Assembly: GCA_903915125.1 (NCBI GenBank)
Contig: CAIWRR010000196.1
Span: 1-33,350 of the forward strand
Direction of reading: 5' to 3'
Source of the DNA: Candidatus Firestoneibacteriota bacterium
GTDB lineage: Bacteria > Oederibacteriota > D2-FULL-39-29 > CAIOVX01
DNA: 33,350 nucleotides
Made by a program: the position numbers and the translations under genes. Below the pieces are notes generated by a model. It worked only from the letters and a program-made list of their open reading frames with translations, ran no database searches and was not told the DNA's origin. Shown here in pieces: positions 5,948 through 30,091 of this stretch (position 1 is its first letter; each line of letters opens with the position of its first letter).

Positions 5948-5982
5948 TTAATTGTAATTAGCAATTAGTAATCAGCAATTGT
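5948..5982. repeat. Heptamer-period array (TTAATTG TAATTAG CAATTAG TAATCAG CAATTGT)
   Basis: Five consecutive 7-mers in register, immediately past the 3' end of the minus-strand tRNA. Confidence 0.75.
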
Positions 5983-5988
5983 TCTTAA

Positions 5989-6064
5989 TGGTGCCGGCGG
6001 AGGGACTCGAACCCCCGACCTAGGGATTATGATTCCCGTGCTCTACCGACTGAGCTACACCGGC
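5989..6064 (-). tRNA. tRNA with CAT anticodon (elongator Met, or Ile2), CCA encoded
   Basis: Reverse complement folds as GCCGGTG TA GCTC AGTCGGTA GAGC A CGGGA ATCATAA TCCCT AGGTC GGGGG TTCGAGT CCCTC CGCCGGC A CCA; G1-C72 paired, so not a typical bacterial initiator. Confidence 0.95.
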
Positions 6065-8917: not shown

Positions 8918-9893
8918 GCTAAAGAAGATCCTTGACAATTTTTCGGGCAAGAGAGTGCTGGTCCTTGGGGACATAATACTTGACGAATATATCTTCGGGA
9001 AAGTTTCAAGGCTCTCTCCCGAAGCGCCGGTGCCGATAGTTGAGGTTGAATCCAGGGAGAGTATTCCCGGCGGTGCCGCGTATGTCTCCTCGCATATAGC
9101 AAACCTGGGCGGGAAAGCGCTGCTCTCGGGTGTTATCGGACGGGACGAGCACGGTAAAATACTGAAGAGAAACCTTGCCGGCAAGGGCGTCGAGCTCGCG
9201 GGCGTTGTCGAGGCAAAGGACCGGCAGACGATATTGAAGACCCGGATCATTGCCCAGAGACAGCAGATGGTAAGAATTGACAGCGAGAAAAAAGCGGCTG
9301 TCGACGCGGAAACGGCGCGCGCGATAATTTCTTTTGTTGAAAGCGTGATAGACAGCGTGGATTCCCTGATTATTTCCGATTACGGGAAGGGAGTTGTAAT
9401 TCCTTCGATTTTCAAGCAAGTAATCGGGATGGCCGGAAAGAGAAAGATTCCGGTGGCGGTGGACCCTAAACCGACCCACTGTCTTATGTATAAAGGGGTT
9501 ACGGTAATAACGCCGAATACAAAGGAAGCTTCAGAATCTGTCCATATTGAAATCAAAGACGAAGAGTCGCTGCTTAAGGCGGGGAAAGAATTGCTGGGGC
9601 GCGTGGGCTGTGAATCAGTCCTTATTACGAGAGGCGAGCACGGCATGTCTCTTTTCAGGCGCGGCAAAGTTCCCCTGCACATACCCACTTTCGCGCAGGA
9701 AGTGTTTGATGTTACAGGCGCCGGCGATACGGTGATAAGCGTTTTGGCTCTTTCGCTTGCGGCCGGAGCCAATCTTGCGGAAGCTTCTTATCTGGCCAAT
9801 GTGGCGGCAGGCGTGGTTGTGGGAAAACTCGGGGCGGCGTCGGTCAGCCTTGATGAAATTAAGAAAATGTTAAAGGCAAGCACTAAATCCTAA
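8904..9893 (+). CDS. rfaE1: D-glycero-beta-D-manno-heptose-7-phosphate kinase
   Basis: VLVLGDIILDEYIFGKVSRLSPEAPVPIVEVESRESIPGGAAYVSSHIANLGGKALLSGVIGRDEHG...DVTGAGDTVISV. Confidence 0.95.
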   Translation: MNKNRLKKILDNFSGKRVLVLGDIILDEYIFGKVSRLSPEAPVPIVEVESRESIPGGAAYVSSHIANLGGKALLSGVIGRDEHGKILKRNLAGKGVELAGVVEAKDRQTILKTRIIAQRQQMVRIDSEKKAAVDAETARAIISFVESVIDSVDSLIISDYGKGVVIPSIFKQVIGMAGKRKIPVAVDPKPTHCLMYKGVTVITPNTKEASESVHIEIKDEESLLKAGKELLGRVGCESVLITRGEHGMSLFRRGKVPLHIPTFAQEVFDVTGAGDTVISVLALSLAAGANLAEASYLANVAAGVVVGKLGAASVSLDEIKKMLKASTKS

Positions 9894-9978
9894 ATTCTAA
9901 AAAGAAGCAAGTGGCAAAACGTGTTTAGAGTTTGGTGTTTGATTCTTCTGTTTTTGTTTAGAATTTAGAGTTTAGAAT
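9883..9978. repeat. Inverted heptamer-period array (CTAAATN arm / TTTAGAR arm)
   Basis: Left CTAAATC CTAAATT CTAAAAA (9883-9903); middle TTTAGAG TTTGGTG TTTGATT (9924-9944); right TTTAGAA TTTAGAG TTTAGAA (9957-9977). 9883-9901 is the reverse complement of 9957-9975 with 2 mismatches. Confidence 0.85.
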
Positions 9979-10004
9979 TTGATTTTTGCCTTAAAGGTGC
10001 TTGA

Positions 10005-22711: not shown

Positions 22712-25700
22712 GTGGCAGACGACAAGAATTCTACACAACCGCCGAACCTTAACCGTTCATCCGCGGATAGAGACACGAAAACATCGTCCGGTATCAAGGG
22801 ACACGCCGCCGCATCTATTTCTGCAGGCAGTTCCGGGCTCAGCGAGCTGAAAAAGAGCGTGCGGGCTGTTACCGGCGAGAAAAGAAAGAAACTTGCCAGG
22901 GAGAAAGCCGAACTCAGCAGGATCTTCCTTAAAAAGGCGAATGAAGTTAAGGCGGTCAAATCTGCCCTGTCCCGGAAGCAGCGCTCCCTTGAGAAAAGAA
23001 TATCAGGCCTTCGAAAGGAATACGCCGCGGAGAAAGTAAGGTTGTTGAAGGAACTCAGGCACAGGGACGCCGAACTCAAGAGGAAGTCGCTGTCAGGCGA
23101 TACAGCTGTTCTTGAAGCGCAGGAACTCTGGGTCAGGCGCGAGCAGGAAATAAAACATAAGCAGGACAAGGCGCTAAGAGAGCTCAAGGCGGCCGAGGAA
23201 AAACTTCTGGCCGAGCGGGAAAAGAACTGGCTCTCCGCGCTTAAATCAAAAGAGGAAGAATCCGGAGCTCTTAAGGTTGAGCTCGCGCTTCAGGAATCCA
23301 AGATACGCTCGCTTGCCCATAAACAGGAAGAAGAGCTTGCCGGAATGAAAGAGAGGGCGGAGGAATTGGTTGAGGACAGGACCAGGAAGGTGCTGGTCGA
23401 GAAAGACCGTTTGCTTGGACTTATATCGCTGAAAGAAAAAGAGGTCGAGGACCTTCGCAGGGACTTCAAGGAAAAGGAAGATCATTTTCTTAAGGCGATT
23501 GAAGCGCAGGAACTGGAAAGCAGAGTCGTTGCGGCGCGTGCCGAGCAGGAGATGAAGGAGCGCGAAAAGAAGGTTTGGGCGGAGCGCGAGAGCTGGCTCA
23601 AAGCCTTACAGGCGCAATTCGAGAAGAAGGAGAAGGATTTCAGCTCCTTCCTTGAACGCGAGAAAGGGTTGTCCGCCGCCGCAGAAAAGGCGCATAAAGA
23701 GAAAATGGCAATCCTGCTTTCAGAAATTGAAAAGAAAGACGCGGCAATAGCGAAACTCAGGGATGAACTGGCAACGCTTATAAATAGTAAAAGAGGGGAA
23801 ATTGAGAAGCTTGGCGCGTTTTTTCAGTCCGAGCTTAAAGTGCTTGAAGGCCGCCTGCGCAGGCAGGAGGCGGAGAAGGACGAGGCGCTAAGAAAAGGCG
23901 CGTTAAAAGAGAAGGAGCTCCGCAGAGAAATAGATATTTCGGAAAAGGCTGTCGCGGAACTCAGTGAAAAGCTTTTGGGCAGGGACAATGTCTGGAAGGA
24001 AAGGCTTGAGCAGAAGGCCTCGGAAGTTCTCGGCGCAAAGTCAGAAACCGTGCAGAAGGCAAGGGAACTTGAGGAAGTCAGATCCCGGCTCAGCTCAGAG
24101 AAGAGCAGGCTGCTTGAGAATCTCAACCGCAGGGAAAGCGAAATAAACCGCGAGCTTGGTTTGAAAAATGACGAGATCGCGTCTCTTCAAAAGAAGCTGG
24201 ACGGGATAGACCGCGAATGGCGCGGCAAACTTGAAGCAGAAAGGCAGGACCTCTTTGGCCGGCTGACCGCCGCCGAATTCGCCCTGAAACGCGAGGAAGG
24301 AAAGGCGGCGGACGCTATGTCCCGCCAGGAACAGGCCGCGGCGCGGTTTGCCGCGGCAATGGCCGAGGCGAAAACGGCAAAGGAAGACGCGGTCCGTTTT
24401 GAGGCGGAACTGCGGACTATCAGGGCGGAGAAGCGCAGGATAGAGGACGATTACTCAGCCCGCCTTTTAGACAAGGAAAGCCAATTAAAGAAAATTATCC
24501 GCGATTCGTCGGCGAATGAACTTGAGCTTGTTGCCCTGCGCGCGGAGCTCAGAAAGATTGAGCTTGACCGTGATCTTAAGCTTACACATTCTAACGAACG
24601 GGTGCTTGCGCTCGAGACTGAACTTAAAAAAAGAAACCCGCTGCCGGCGGGACGCGACGAAGAACTTTCGGCGGCCCGGGAGCTGGGAGAAGAAAGACGG
24701 AAAAAACTGGTTGCTTTCTACGATACGGCGGGACGCCTGGAAGAAGAGAAATTCAGAGCGGAGCTTGAGTCAAAGAAGGCCCGAGAAAAACTCGAACAAG
24801 CTGTCAGGGAATTGGCAGCGGCGAAGGCGGAAGCGGCGCTGTCCTCTTCCGGCAGAAAACAGGCGGAGGAAGAATACCGCTCCCTTCAGCGGCAGAAAGA
24901 GTCTGCGGAACTTCTGCTGAAACAGTCCGCCGGTGAGAAAGAGCGTCTGGAACGCGAACTTTCCGCGGTAACGCTTAAAAGAGAGTCAACCGAAGGCAGG
25001 CTCGCCGAGCTTACCGAAAGGCATAACGCGCTTGAACGCGCTAGAAAAGAGGCAGAAGAGGCCAGGCTGTCTTCCGAGGAGCAATACGCCGAACTATACG
25101 CTGAATACGAGCGCCTTTCAGGGGAAACAGCAGTTCCGTCAGCCGGAGAAATTGAAGAGCTGCGGGAAAGCATCTCGGAGCTGGAATCAGAAAGGTCCGC
25201 TCTGAAAAAAGATCTATCCAGGGCTGCGTCTGACCGGGCAAGGCTTGCCGGCGCCGCCGAGAAGGCGGAGCGTGAGGCTGAGACTGCCGAGGCAGCGCTC
25301 AGAGATGCGGAGCGGGGTTTTGAAGCTAAGCTCTATAGAGAAGGCAGGGAGCTCAGAGAAAAAGAAAGGCAATTCGCCGAACTCACCGAGGTACTGGATA
25401 GAAAAGAAGCTGAATTAAAAAAACTGCGCGCCGATGCCGATATTCGGTTCGCGCAGTTGAAGGAAGAATTTGGGCGAAGAGAGCGCGAATATGTGCAGCT
25501 TTCCGGAAGCGTTGAATCAAAGCTTGCCGGTTTTAACGCGGAGCGCCCGGAAGGTGTTGATGCCGCCGGAAAGGAAGCGGACAGGTTCAGGCAGGAAGCG
25601 GGACGGCAGCTTTACAGAGTGGAACAGTTTACTGCAGAAATATTATCCCTGCGGAGCGAAATAAAGGCCAGAGATGAACAGCTCGCTGTGGTCAACAAAG

Positions 25701-26770
25701 AAAAGGCCGAAGCACTGAGGGATTTGTCAGCGAAACTCGAGGCCTCCGATTCACAGGCGAGGGAGTTTGCGGAAAGAATAATAAAAGAACAGAAAAAACT
25801 GGCGGACGTAATCGGGTTGAACGAGCAATTGAAAGCGGAGCTCGCGTCTGGCTCGGGTTTTGCAGAAAAATACAAAGGAAAAGAATCTGAAATTGATGCG
25901 ATTAAGAGGGAGTACAAGCTTAAGGCAGAAGATGCCGCTGCCCGTTCCTTGGATGCTCTAAAGGGGCGCGAAGAGGCGCTTGCCCGGGCGGCTGAGGCAG
26001 AGAGAATATCTAAAGAGAAAGACCTGGAACTGCTCGCAGTCAAGACCAGATTGAGTACCCAGATAAAAGAACTCTCCGGTCATATTGAAATTAAAGAGAA
26101 GGAGCTCCAGGGAATAAGGTCAATGCTTTCCGAGCTGGAGCAGAAAGCTAGGTCGGAGTTCGAGCTCAAAGGAGAGGAACTTAAGTTGGCCATTAACAGG
26201 CTGCAGCTGCAGCTTAAGAACGTGACGGGGAAGACGGAAGCGGAACTTAACGAGAAGGAACAGAAAGTTAAATCGATGCAGACCGAGTACGCGCTCCGCG
26301 AGGTTCAGTGGAAACAGCAGAAGGAAACAAATGAAAGGGACCGGGAGCGTATAGCCCTCTTCGAAGCCGAGATTGCGAGGCTCCGCGAGGAGTCGTCAAA
26401 TTCCATCAAAGAACTGCAGGCGGTTGTTGAGCACCAGAAGAGGCGCCTGACAGAGACCGAGAATTACCTCCATGCAAGGGAGGAAGAAACCAAACTGGCG
26501 AATGAAAAACTCAGGGAAGAGGTCGCCGCGCGTGAAGAACTCCAGGCGTCGCACTCAGACGAGTTGGCGGCGAAGGAAGGCATGTTCGCTGCAAAGGAAT
26601 GGGGGCTTAACGCGAAGATTGGCGACCTTGCGAGTGAAAAGAACAATCTGGAAGCCGAGAATGCGGCCATAACCGGCAGAATAGATGAAGCTGAAGCGGC
26701 GCTTGCCGCCTTGCGCAGAAGGTTCAGGCTATTGCTCTGGTTCTGGTACCCGAACGAACCGAGGAACTAA
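22712..26770 (+). CDS. 1352-aa coiled-coil protein, no recognisable catalytic domain, GTG start
   Basis: Almost entirely Glu/Lys/Ala/Leu/Arg heptad-rich sequence; ends RRRFRLLLWFWYPNEPRN; GGAGAG upstream of GTG at 22712. Confidence 0.85.
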   Translation: MADDKNSTQPPNLNRSSADRDTKTSSGIKGHAAASISAGSSGLSELKKSVRAVTGEKRKKLAREKAELSRIFLKKANEVKAVKSALSRKQRSLEKRISGLRKEYAAEKVRLLKELRHRDAELKRKSLSGDTAVLEAQELWVRREQEIKHKQDKALRELKAAEEKLLAEREKNWLSALKSKEEESGALKVELALQESKIRSLAHKQEEELAGMKERAEELVEDRTRKVLVEKDRLLGLISLKEKEVEDLRRDFKEKEDHFLKAIEAQELESRVVAARAEQEMKEREKKVWAERESWLKALQAQFEKKEKDFSSFLEREKGLSAAAEKAHKEKMAILLSEIEKKDAAIAKLRDELATLINSKRGEIEKLGAFFQSELKVLEGRLRRQEAEKDEALRKGALKEKELRREIDISEKAVAELSEKLLGRDNVWKERLEQKASEVLGAKSETVQKARELEEVRSRLSSEKSRLLENLNRRESEINRELGLKNDEIASLQKKLDGIDREWRGKLEAERQDLFGRLTAAEFALKREEGKAADAMSRQEQAAARFAAAMAEAKTAKEDAVRFEAELRTIRAEKRRIEDDYSARLLDKESQLKKIIRDSSANELELVALRAELRKIELDRDLKLTHSNERVLALETELKKRNPLPAGRDEELSAARELGEERRKKLVAFYDTAGRLEEEKFRAELESKKAREKLEQAVRELAAAKAEAALSSSGRKQAEEEYRSLQRQKESAELLLKQSAGEKERLERELSAVTLKRESTEGRLAELTERHNALERARKEAEEARLSSEEQYAELYAEYERLSGETAVPSAGEIEELRESISELESERSALKKDLSRAASDRARLAGAAEKAEREAETAEAALRDAERGFEAKLYREGRELREKERQFAELTEVLDRKEAELKKLRADADIRFAQLKEEFGRREREYVQLSGSVESKLAGFNAERPEGVDAAGKEADRFRQEAGRQLYRVEQFTAEILSLRSEIKARDEQLAVVNKEKAEALRDLSAKLEASDSQAREFAERIIKEQKKLADVIGLNEQLKAELASGSGFAEKYKGKESEIDAIKREYKLKAEDAAARSLDALKGREEALARAAEAERISKEKDLELLAVKTRLSTQIKELSGHIEIKEKELQGIRSMLSELEQKARSEFELKGEELKLAINRLQLQLKNVTGKTEAELNEKEQKVKSMQTEYALREVQWKQQKETNERDRERIALFEAEIARLREESSNSIKELQAVVEHQKRRLTETENYLHAREEETKLANEKLREEVAAREELQASHSDELAAKEGMFAAKEWGLNAKIGDLASEKNNLEAENAAITGRIDEAEAALAALRRRFRLLLWFWYPNEPRN

Positions 26771-26774
26771 AACC

Positions 26775-26908
26775 AAATTCAAAATTCGAATACTGAAATT
26801 CGAAAGCACTGCTTAACGCGCGGCAGAGAATACGGTAAACAGCCATCATATTAATTTCTCTCTGCGGTTTTTGTTTCGAATTTCGGATTTCTTGCTTCGA
26901 ATTTCCCT
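26775..26908. repeat. Inverted heptamer-period array (AAATTCG arm / TTTCGAA arm)
   Basis: Left AAATTCA AAATTCG AATACTG AAATTCG AAAGCAC (26775-26809); right TTTCGAA TTTCGGA TTTCTTG CTTCGAA TTTCCCT (26874-26908). GAAATTCGAAA 26795-26805 pairs exactly with TTTCGAATTTC 26874-26884. Confidence 0.85.
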
Positions 26909-26920
26909 CAAGGAGTTCTT

Positions 26921-29900
26921 ATGAATACGGTTAAGGCATGGGAAGGACCTCTTGTAATTCCTACCTATGAGACCGGAGAAGAGAACGAGAACCCCGACCT
27001 GGCCGTTGAAGGCAACCTCCGCATGTACCCCTACACCCGCCGGCTGCACCTCAAAGGCACAAAAAAGGACAGGACTTACCGCGCCCTGTTTATTGAGAAT
27101 GAATTTCTGAAGGCCATAATATTGCCGGAACTCGGCGGCAGGGTCTATTCCTGCGAGGACAAGGTAACCGGCCGCGATATCTTCTATAAGAACGGCGTTA
27201 TAAAACCGGCCCTGATTCAGACAAAGGGGACCTGGATTGCGTGCGGTCTAGAACTTAACTTCCCCATGGGCCATTCCATTACTTCCTATGAAACCATAGA
27301 CAGCAGGATAATAAGGAGCGCCGACGGTTCCGCGGGAGTCGCGGTAGGGAATATCGACCTTGTTACCAGGATGAGGTGGACGGTCATAGTGAAGCTTTAT
27401 CCCGGGGTTTCGGCCCTGGAGCTCTCCGTGAAATTGAATAACCGCGGGGTGCTTCCCGAAAGGTATTATTTTTGGGCCAACGCGGCGGTGGATGCCACGG
27501 AAGGCCTCCACCTTGTGTTCCCTGCCAGCAAGCTGAAAGGCGGAGAGGGCGGTAAAATAAATTATCCCGTCCACAAGGGCACGGATCTCAGTTATTACAG
27601 GAATACCAAGAGCACCTCCGAGGGATTCGCGCATAATTCCCCCGAGAATTTTTTCGGCTATTATAATGAAGATTACGATTTCGGAATGGTTCACTACGCC
27701 GACCGGCACGAGGTTTCCGGAAAGAAGTTTTTCTCCTGGGGTTCCGTAAACGGGCTCCGCTGGAAAAAGTTCCTGACAGACGACAATCCTCCTTACGTGG
27801 AATTTCAGTCCGGCCCGTTTGAAACACAGCTGCGGTGGGAGTTTTTGAATCCGTGCGGCACCTCCGAGTTCAAACAGTATTATATGCCCGTAAGAAAGAC
27901 CGGCGGGTTTGTCTACGCGAACAGGGAAGCCGCCGTGAACCTGGTCCAGAGGCACAGCACCGGTTCCATGGAGCTTGCAATCTCCGCGAACCGGATTATC
28001 AAAGACGCGGTCATTTGCGTGTCCGCGCGCGGGAGAAAGTATTACTCCGGAAAGAGGACGCTCTCGCCGCTTGATGTTTTTAGGGAATCTTTCCCTTTTC
28101 CGCCGGACCTCGGCGGGAAAAAAATCACGCTCTCCGTGTCGGAGGGCGGTTCGGAAATACTCAGGTACGAAAGCATTGTGTCAAAACTGGGGAATTATGA
28201 ATCGCTTCCGGACCTGCCGGCAAAAAAGGGGCGCAGGATAGTTGAAACGCTCTACGGCGAGGGATTGACCCTGGAGAAGAGAAGGTTCTTCACGGAGGCG
28301 TCGGAGAAGTACGGGGAGGCGCTTGAGAAAGACCCAAAATATGTTCCCGCGCTGCTCCGTCTTGCGGTTATTGCCCTCGAAAAGGGGTTATACCGCCGGG
28401 CGGACGAACTGCTCGCAGGCATAAAGAAAATTGACGCCGCGAACAGAGAGGCCTTCTACTTTCACGGACTGGCCCTCAAGCATCTGGGCAGGACGGAGAA
28501 GGCTGAAGAGTCCTTCAGGCAAGTAAGCACTGACAACGGTTATCCCGGAGTTTCCGCGCTGCTGGAACTCGGCAAACTGGCGCTTGCGTCAGGCCGCCTT
28601 GGAACAGCCGCGGAAACGCTTGCAAAGGCCTGGTCAAAGAATGTCAATAATCCTAAAGCCGCGGGGCTGTATTCGGCGGCGCTGCGCCGTTTAGGAAAAA
28701 CCAAAGAAGCCGCCCATGTTGTGTCTGACTGCCTGGCAAATGAGCCGCTTGACGGCCTGCTTTTAAACGAGTTTAACCTGCTCCGGAAAGGGCCGAAGAA
28801 CGCCGCCGTCCTGCTTTCGGTTCTTCACAGGTGCAGGGAGAACGCCCTTGAAATCGCGGCTGACTACCTGCAGGCCGGGCTCTGGGCCGAGGCCGCGGGA
28901 GTAATTCAGCTTGCGGCGGCAAGATATCCCGATTACCCTCTTTATCATTACTACCTGGGTTTCGCGCTTGAGAAACTCGGACGGTTTAAAGAAGCAAGGG
29001 CGCGCTACCGGGCGGGCGCGCTGGCAAAAGGGAAGCGCTGCTTTCCCTGGCAGGCCGAGGCCGTGGAAATACTTGAGAGCGCGGTTAAAGCTCATCCCCG
29101 CCTGCCGAATACATACGAATACCTTGGGAATTACCTTTTCAGCCGCCTGCGCTGCGAAGAAGCGCTGAAGCACTTCAACAAAGCCAAAGAGCTCGGTTCA
29201 AAAAGCCCGGTCGTATTCAGAAATATCGCTTTAGGTTTGGTGCGCCTGAAAAAAGATTACGATAAAGTGGCCAAGGCCTATGAACAGGCGCTCAGATATA
29301 ATCCTGAGGACTGGGAGATCTACGCGGAAGGGGACCGGTTTCTGTCTATTTACGGGTACAAACCCGTAAGGAGAAGGCTCGCCGGGATTGTTTCGCAAAA
29401 AGCCCTGGAACATCCCAAAGCGATGGAACGCATGGCGAAATATATTGTCGATACCGGCGCCTATGATGAGGCTATAAAGTATATTTCAACCAGGCAGTTC
29501 TATCCGTGGGAAGGCGAGTTTATCTCGAGGCAAATATATGAGGACGCCTGGAACGGCAAGGCGGAGAAGCTGATAAAAGGGAAAGACCTTGACGAGGCGG
29601 CCCGCTGCGTGGAAAGAGCCATGCTTTATCCCGAGAATATCGGCGTGCAAAAGATGGATTGGCGCACGGAGAGCAGGAGCTGGTTCATAAAATATGTTAT
29701 AGCGCGAAAAAAAGGCGACAGCACCGCGGCCAAAGAAGCGCTTGCCAAAATAAAGGGCAGGGAAGAGGAAACAGTTTGGTGGGTCAGCGGGGATTTTACG
29801 GCTTACTATTTCGCGTCGGAAAGGTTTATCTATCACACGCTGGCCTTAAGCATCACTGGCAAATCTGGGCGCGCCGAAGAACTGTTGGACAAAGTGCTTT

Positions 29901-30091
29901 CCAGGTGCAGGAAAGATTCCCGGCGCATGTTTGTCTGGGCTTCGTACCTGGAGGGCTGGCATTTCCTGCAGCTGGAAAACAGGGCTTTTGCCGCAAAGAA
30001 GCTGCTTTCAGGGTTCACAATACCCAAGCCCCTGTACAAATTTTCCGCCGCTATCGCGAAGCTGATTAACAATAGCAAGAACGCGAAATAG
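26921..30091 (+). CDS. DUF5107-like N-terminal domain plus tetratricopeptide repeats
   Basis: N-terminus ...TYRALFIENEFLKAIILPELGGRVYSCEDKVTGRDIFYKNGVIKP... resembles DUF5107; C-terminal half has TPR motifs (e.g. PNTYEYLGNYLFSRLRCEEALKHFNKAKELG). Confidence 0.82.
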   Translation: MNTVKAWEGPLVIPTYETGEENENPDLAVEGNLRMYPYTRRLHLKGTKKDRTYRALFIENEFLKAIILPELGGRVYSCEDKVTGRDIFYKNGVIKPALIQTKGTWIACGLELNFPMGHSITSYETIDSRIIRSADGSAGVAVGNIDLVTRMRWTVIVKLYPGVSALELSVKLNNRGVLPERYYFWANAAVDATEGLHLVFPASKLKGGEGGKINYPVHKGTDLSYYRNTKSTSEGFAHNSPENFFGYYNEDYDFGMVHYADRHEVSGKKFFSWGSVNGLRWKKFLTDDNPPYVEFQSGPFETQLRWEFLNPCGTSEFKQYYMPVRKTGGFVYANREAAVNLVQRHSTGSMELAISANRIIKDAVICVSARGRKYYSGKRTLSPLDVFRESFPFPPDLGGKKITLSVSEGGSEILRYESIVSKLGNYESLPDLPAKKGRRIVETLYGEGLTLEKRRFFTEASEKYGEALEKDPKYVPALLRLAVIALEKGLYRRADELLAGIKKIDAANREAFYFHGLALKHLGRTEKAEESFRQVSTDNGYPGVSALLELGKLALASGRLGTAAETLAKAWSKNVNNPKAAGLYSAALRRLGKTKEAAHVVSDCLANEPLDGLLLNEFNLLRKGPKNAAVLLSVLHRCRENALEIAADYLQAGLWAEAAGVIQLAAARYPDYPLYHYYLGFALEKLGRFKEARARYRAGALAKGKRCFPWQAEAVEILESAVKAHPRLPNTYEYLGNYLFSRLRCEEALKHFNKAKELGSKSPVVFRNIALGLVRLKKDYDKVAKAYEQALRYNPEDWEIYAEGDRFLSIYGYKPVRRRLAGIVSQKALEHPKAMERMAKYIVDTGAYDEAIKYISTRQFYPWEGEFISRQIYEDAWNGKAEKLIKGKDLDEAARCVERAMLYPENIGVQKMDWRTESRSWFIKYVIARKKGDSTAAKEALAKIKGREEETVWWVSGDFTAYYFASERFIYHTLALSITGKSGRAEELLDKVLSRCRKDSRRMFVWASYLEGWHFLQLENRAFAAKKLLSGFTIPKPLYKFSAAIAKLINNSKNAK

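Follow-up and report, generated by a model that had tools for sequence, protein, structure and literature searches.

The two facing arrays of 7-nt words at positions 26775-26908 of the window, by which we mean the whole 33,350-nucleotide stretch of DNA analysed here, are quite probably an old copy, lacking an open reading frame (ORF), of an element resembling the intervening sequences (IVSs) of 23S rRNA. In its full form, this element is a word-array hairpin with a PF05635 gene in its loop. The copy is best read as vertically inherited in four congeners. The arrays fill a 150-bp gap between two co-directional genes, the first ending at 26770 and the second starting at 26921, and the parts of this region are as follows.

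22712-26770, plus strand: upstream coiled-coil gene, with no Pfam match (flanking context)
26771-26912, plus strand: whole hairpin, transcribed between two co-directional genes; RNA minimum free energy (MFE) of -36.6 kcal/mol, z of -3.8
26775-26809, plus strand: left arm, AAATTCA AAATTCG AATACTG AAATTCG, then AAAGCAC (direct reading; profile match of 27.5 bits at 26775, plus strand)
26810-26873, plus strand: loop between the arms, without an ORF; sequence well conserved in all four congeners
26821-26829 and 26857-26867: inner inverted repeat in the loop (CGGCAGAGA and TCTCTCTGCGG), then TTTTT at 26868-26872
26874-26908, minus strand: right arm, inverted, reading on the minus strand GG, AAATTCG AAGCAAG AAATCCG AAATTCG AAA(CAAAAAC) (direct reading)
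26921-30091, plus strand: downstream DUF5107-TPR gene (flanking context)

An initial annotation of this DNA had given the positions and words of the array, its 7-bp period and an exact 11-bp inverted match, and all of these are as it described them. On the plus strand the right arm reads TTTCGAA TTTCGGA TTTCTTG CTTCGAA TTTCCCT (26874-26908), and GAAATTCGAAA (26795-26805) and TTTCGAATTTC (26874-26884) are exact inverse complements over 11 bp. The left arm is made of four AA-NNN-XX heptamers with AAAGCAC in the place of the AAACAA found in the wider family described below. With about four heptamers per arm ending in AAAC(AA), or in AAAGC for the left arm, and an inverted second arm, the copy has the form that defines that family. 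Folded as RNA, the gap reaches -36.6 kcal/mol, whereas dinucleotide shuffles give -24.2 +/- 3.3 and 0 of 200 did as well. No Rfam family was found near this array or the second array of the window, and weak matches to plant miRNAs were chance. Integron attC sites, CRISPR and tandem regulatory arrays were dropped as candidates because no matching feature was seen. Elsewhere in the window, an imperfect period-7 array (TAATTAG, 5949-5980) lies at a distance of 12 nt from the minus-strand tRNA gene at 5992-6064.

All four congeners have the copy at this site, with both arms and the loop recognisable (the left-arm ortholog of 26775-26809 is retained in three), and the RNA of the orthologous gaps reaches -32 to -40 kcal/mol when folded. 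Such a strong hairpin in all four genomes, with a conserved loop that holds a GC-rich stem and a T-run, would suit a cis-acting RNA hairpin, either a terminator or an intercistronic stabiliser, under selection at this locus whatever its origin. The same reading gains from five other loci, where array cores are 90-100% identical to those of congener G003 and most flanks 80-89%, although locating the cores by fuzzy matching favours high identity. The loop stem and T-run (26821-26872) are terminator-like but enclose a long loop of about 27 nt, which makes a poor classical terminator. A cis-acting role alone leaves unexplained why the words are common to other phyla and why they are linked to PF05635 genes; it would also be compatible with an IVS-like origin as a later exaptation. 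We consider it possible as an account of the locus, though on balance doubtful.

In G003 the innermost word has changed from AAATTCG to AAATTAG in both arms, and exactly 7 nt, one heptamer, has been lost from the right arm. The paired change is a single event that compensation or hairpin-templated copying could explain equally well, and column-wise pair counting at the locus is uninformative because the heptamer register slips and G003 carries the 7-nt deletion. Both changes are also what neutral low-complexity DNA might produce, with tandem 7-bp words arising by slippage and the arms kept similar by template switching within quasi-palindromes. A further point for such neutral processes is a locus seen in nearly identical strains (L005 and L097), where the flanks agree and the array contents are wholly different. 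The contigs C89 and C262 of the source genome (G000) are 97-100% identical to G002 (L097, L098), and since other shared regions are about 83% identical, one of these two metagenome-assembled genomes (MAGs) probably holds contigs of the other.

The words, however, recur far beyond the genus. Searching the source genome for the 17-mer AAATTCGAAATTCGAAA with at most one mismatch, as the initial annotation had proposed for AAATTCG-rich arrays, gave 23 matches against 0 for the reversed pattern; the count is 13-15 in three congeners and 24-72 in some same-order genomes. In the family, each arm is built on a skeleton of four AA-NNN-XX heptamers and then AAACAA, where XX is mostly CG and NNN is drawn from a small vocabulary (mostly ATT, ATC, GCA and TAT, with ATA, TTT and ACT also occurring). 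In copies with both arms, which come from many phyla, an arm usually holds four AA-NNN-CG heptamers and then AAAC. A composite 24-mer that mixes two different words, AAATTCGAAGCAMNAAATTCGAAA, matches MAGs and an isolate from more than ten phyla: Planctomycetota, Omnitrophota, Desulfobacterota, Aminicenantes, Patescibacteria, Firestonebacteria, Latescibacterota, WOR-3, Armatimonadota, Verrucomicrobia and Gammaproteobacteria (the last including the isolate). The degenerate pattern AANNNCGAANNNCGAANNNCGAAAC finds up to 252 arms per genome among 20 genomes, and its reversed control finds 0 in 19 of the 20. That many phyla have identical, discrete words and arms of four words, with a reversed control near zero, is not what slippage predicts, and the cross-phylum vocabulary by itself already largely refutes the neutral reading. 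In IMG/VR contigs, 104 stretches match AANNNCGAANNNCGAANNNCGAAAC (L282-L361), which may be viral genomes or host flanks. Within the literature covered, which took in subscription papers in part, the family words appear in no relevant paper and no word-armed PF05635 elements outside rRNA are reported.

The copies are discrete blocks. Forty copies from a deltaproteobacterium (G052), collected with a pattern in which three words of one side and two of the opposite side are fixed, extend to a fourth word on both sides and have unique sequence outside, so the block ends sharply. The two arms have different consensuses, AAATTCG AAATCCG AATATCG AAATCCG against AAATTCG AAGCACG AAATCCG AAATTCG. Among 31 clearly oriented copies from one genome, the same triplet occurs at mirrored words 0.13 times per element, against 0.45 in permuted arms (p about 1e-4). 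The first run of this test was possibly biased by orientation; repeated with model-based orientation, and with unambiguous copies only, it gave the same result. In these copies mirrored words avoid the same triplet, and therefore the AA..CG frame pairs while the centres are mismatched, which suggests a hairpin designed with regular internal loops. The idea that compensatory heptamer changes would reveal selection on structure thus fails across the family. Arms less alike than permuted ones are also the opposite of what template correction would leave, and with the association with PF05635 genes described below counting against it as well, we regard a neutral origin as extremely improbable.

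Copies lie a short way past stop codons, at a median of about 7 nt, and their commonest setting is a gap between co-directional genes; this bears out the gene-end location noticed from the window alone. That location had been given as 4 nt after the stop for both arrays of the window. The figure holds for the 26775 array, which starts 4 nt past the end of the upstream ORF (26770); the left words of the second array, called here the 9883 array, run across the stop codon (9891-9893) of a pfkB-family gene. The arms of this second array are the following.

9878-9898, plus strand: left arm of the second copy, AAGCACT AAATCCT AAATTCT
9953-9987, minus strand: right arm of the second copy, AAATTCT AAACTCT AAATTCT AAACAAAAAC on the minus strand (profile match of 19.1 bits at 9953, minus strand)

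The two-arm architecture and the grammar common to the two arrays hold up. The initial annotation went on to describe them as built on different words and took this as an argument against simple dispersal of one repeat. The first of these statements falls, since both arrays use the family triplets ATT, ATC, ACT and GCA and only the last two letters of the words differ (CG against CT). An arm profile trained on 401 arms from loci outside the genus, almost all in other phyla and a few in Firestonebacteria, picked out only these two arrays in the whole 33-kb window: its five best scores fall on the 26775 element, in both arms, and on the 9883 element, in the right arm. These scores, which include neighbouring registers, run from 38.0 bits (the right arm of the 26775 element, at 26870 on the minus strand) down to 19.1 bits, against a simulated maximum of 7.0 in 60 windows. 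Because one profile trained outside the genus finds both, the two arrays are, on sequence evidence, dispersed members of one element family. The argument against dispersal is therefore right in that this is no plain copy-paste repeat, and wrong in that both arrays are dispersed family members.

In copies with widely spaced arms, an ORF of 118-129 codons lies between the arms and matches PF05635 (23S rRNA-intervening-sequence protein, IVP or S23). To our knowledge, this family, also called 'four helix bundle', is common, has no known function and is known mainly from insertions in 23S rRNA. A protein search of 30 genomes yielded a subfamily of 15 genes (one of them a self-hit at 100%) that are 57-73% identical to the query across phyla and well separated from the rest; its closest solved structure is PDB 2rld. 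All 15 genes are flanked by word arms, on one side at the least and in nearly all cases on both. At the gene at 5103329 of G040 (CP070694), about 100 bases downstream are masked as N, which hides the second arm (L566, L542). A same-order genome (G008) and Firestonebacteria RIFOXYA2_FULL_40_8 (G048) have identical IVP matches, which points to a place near that group for the source organism. In most of the subfamily, the ATG of the IVP gene lies inside the arm, in the word AATGACC, and the start region AAACAA...AATGACCAAAATTCAAATG is retained by ORF-less copies, as would be expected if these derive by loss of the middle of the IVP gene. In the 26775-26908 copy no IVP remnant was found and the loop is unlike the IVP start region, so that the loop may have another origin. 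Several hairpin-bearing genomes among the 30 searched have no member of the subfamily, and none matching the hairpins was found in the incomplete assembly of the source genome itself. The congener G002 does have an IVP gene, with arms AAATTCT AATCACT AAATTCT AAACAAAATG and, inverted, AAGCACT AAATTCT AAATACT AAACAAAG, which are of the CT flavour seen in the 9883 array. In G001 and G003, the space between the same two flanking genes holds a CG-flavoured hairpin that lacks an ORF, and a further word array comes after it.

The association is not confined to one subfamily. Other PF05635 genes are flanked by inverted arms of other words of about 7 nt, such as AATGTCG, AACATCG and AATCGTC. Among 86 PF05635 genes, 61 have flanks whose inverted similarity exceeds the 95% point of mismatched pairs, and 38 exceed the 99% point, a conservative test because the null itself contains shared words. 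Protein similarity, as far as sequence comparison goes, predicts the arm words across phyla: cross-phylum pairs with at least 55% protein identity (n = 51) have a mean of 7.0 arm 9-mers in common and 57% of them have at least five, whereas pairs below 35% identity (n = 1977) have a mean of 1.0 and 3.5% have at least five. PF05635 was absent from 14 control genomes. The source genome contains further arrays of period 7 or 8 with other words, namely GGTTAGAG, CATCCAA and AAGCACCAAATCAC (L014 1380-1500, L001 1590-1660, L007 1540-1750), which are likely the arms of other IVP subfamilies. Its locus L007 also has, at 309-456, a TPP riboswitch upstream of a gene, scoring about at the gathering threshold.

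The case for mobility of the hairpins is built on copy number and distribution, because no clean empty site for a word hairpin was found and target-site duplications did not occur above chance. The hairpins might then be palindromes of the REP/REPIN or MITE kind that depend for movement on a transposase, Y1 (IS200/RAYT-type) or another, with the IVP gene an occasional passenger between the arms. They are imperfect palindromes in many intergenic copies, and Y1_Tnp genes occur in eight of the eight genomes tested, with three in the source genome. A separate 42-bp GC-rich double palindrome (TCCGCCTGCAG..GAGATCTCGCC..GGCGGA) has clearly been inserted into one word array (L019, about 1445-1490, on contig C243 of G000), the site without it being present in G001 and G002 (compare L069 and L070); it also lies within other arrays (L021, L027, L014). 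A passenger would nevertheless not be expected to contribute its start codon to the arm skeleton, where ORF-less copies still keep it, nor to predict the arm word across phyla, and other IVP subfamilies would not each carry inverted word arms of their own. We therefore consider this transposase-based reading unlikely. Another enzyme could still move the hairpins by a REP-like route, given the lack of target-site duplications and the Y1 transposases in the genomes tested.

For the IVS-like element that we favour, the following course may be proposed. A complete element consists of two inverted arrays of four 7-nt words (AA-NNN-XX) with AAACAA, and a small PF05635 gene in the loop. Elements lie in transcribed gaps, mostly between a stop codon and the next ribosome-binding site, and are therefore present in mRNA as long AU-rich hairpins. 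We infer that the IVP binds the hairpin written in its own words, probably in the form of RNA, and that this binding drives the spread of full and ORF-less copies alike. The hairpin would be tolerated because it acts on RNA between genes; mRNA gaps between co-directional genes, just past a stop codon, may be where it does least harm. At 26775-26908, the inner GC-rich stem and T5 were possibly adopted as a terminator. More tentatively, PF05635 proteins might in general be word-reading hairpin binders, each subfamily reading its own word of about 7 nt with mismatched centres kept on purpose, and each spreading its own gene and ORF-less hairpins across phyla by way of host-operon RNA and possibly, like the related Avd of retroelements, together with a reverse transcriptase supplied in trans.

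Here PF05635 genes turn up at the centre of dispersed elements that lie in protein-gene operons, with a 7-nt word hairpin particular to each subfamily. The consequences for this unexplained and long-mysterious protein family are strong, as it gains a specific, testable nucleic-acid substrate as candidate partner. The elements also account for a class of puzzling repeats between the genes of uncultured bacteria and tie these to IVSs, perhaps also to Avd.

Among known systems, the TAACTGA repeats of marine Beggiatoaceae (PMC4679880) likewise consist of 7-nt units between genes, occur in related word variants and are scattered over distant phyla, and their heptamer period and gene-adjacent position are similar. 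They are, however, direct repeats, mostly just upstream of start codons, with no inverted partner arm and no reported link to IVP, whereas the arrays here are inverted arm pairs of fixed length at gene ends; a reading on their model is very unlikely. REP/REPIN sequences with their RAYTs are also small, dispersed, intergenic and palindromic, leave no target-site duplication and are likely non-autonomous. The word family differs from them in having four 7-nt words per arm and, as the partner gene in the loop, PF05635 instead of a Y1 transposase. PF05635 resembles Avd of diversity-generating retroelements, which is essential for retrohoming (PMC10053308), but an unsystematic look beside the word elements saw no reverse transcriptase and no template or variable repeat.

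The closest likeness is to the IVS/S23 system of 23S rRNA. IVSs are hairpins excised by RNase III and regarded as selfish; that of Coxiella burnetii has 428 nt and a 28-bp stem, and Xanthomonas S23p forms a pentamer of four-helix bundles (PMC4990558). In both systems a hairpin with inverted ends, with a PF05635 gene in its loop, lies inside a transcript and has a sporadic, horizontal distribution. The word elements differ in lying between protein genes, in having degenerate 7-nt arrays with mismatched centres for arms, and in that most copies have no ORF. The window copy has stem-forming inverted ends (z of -3.8), as the full-length relatives have inverted flanks; the PF05635 ORF is present in the loop of 15 relatives from other phyla and of the element in congener G002, and is absent from the window copy, which, like its relatives, lies between two protein genes and not in a 23S rRNA helix. 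Although it is no IVS by definition, because it has no ORF and is not in rRNA, the window copy would work like an IVS element.
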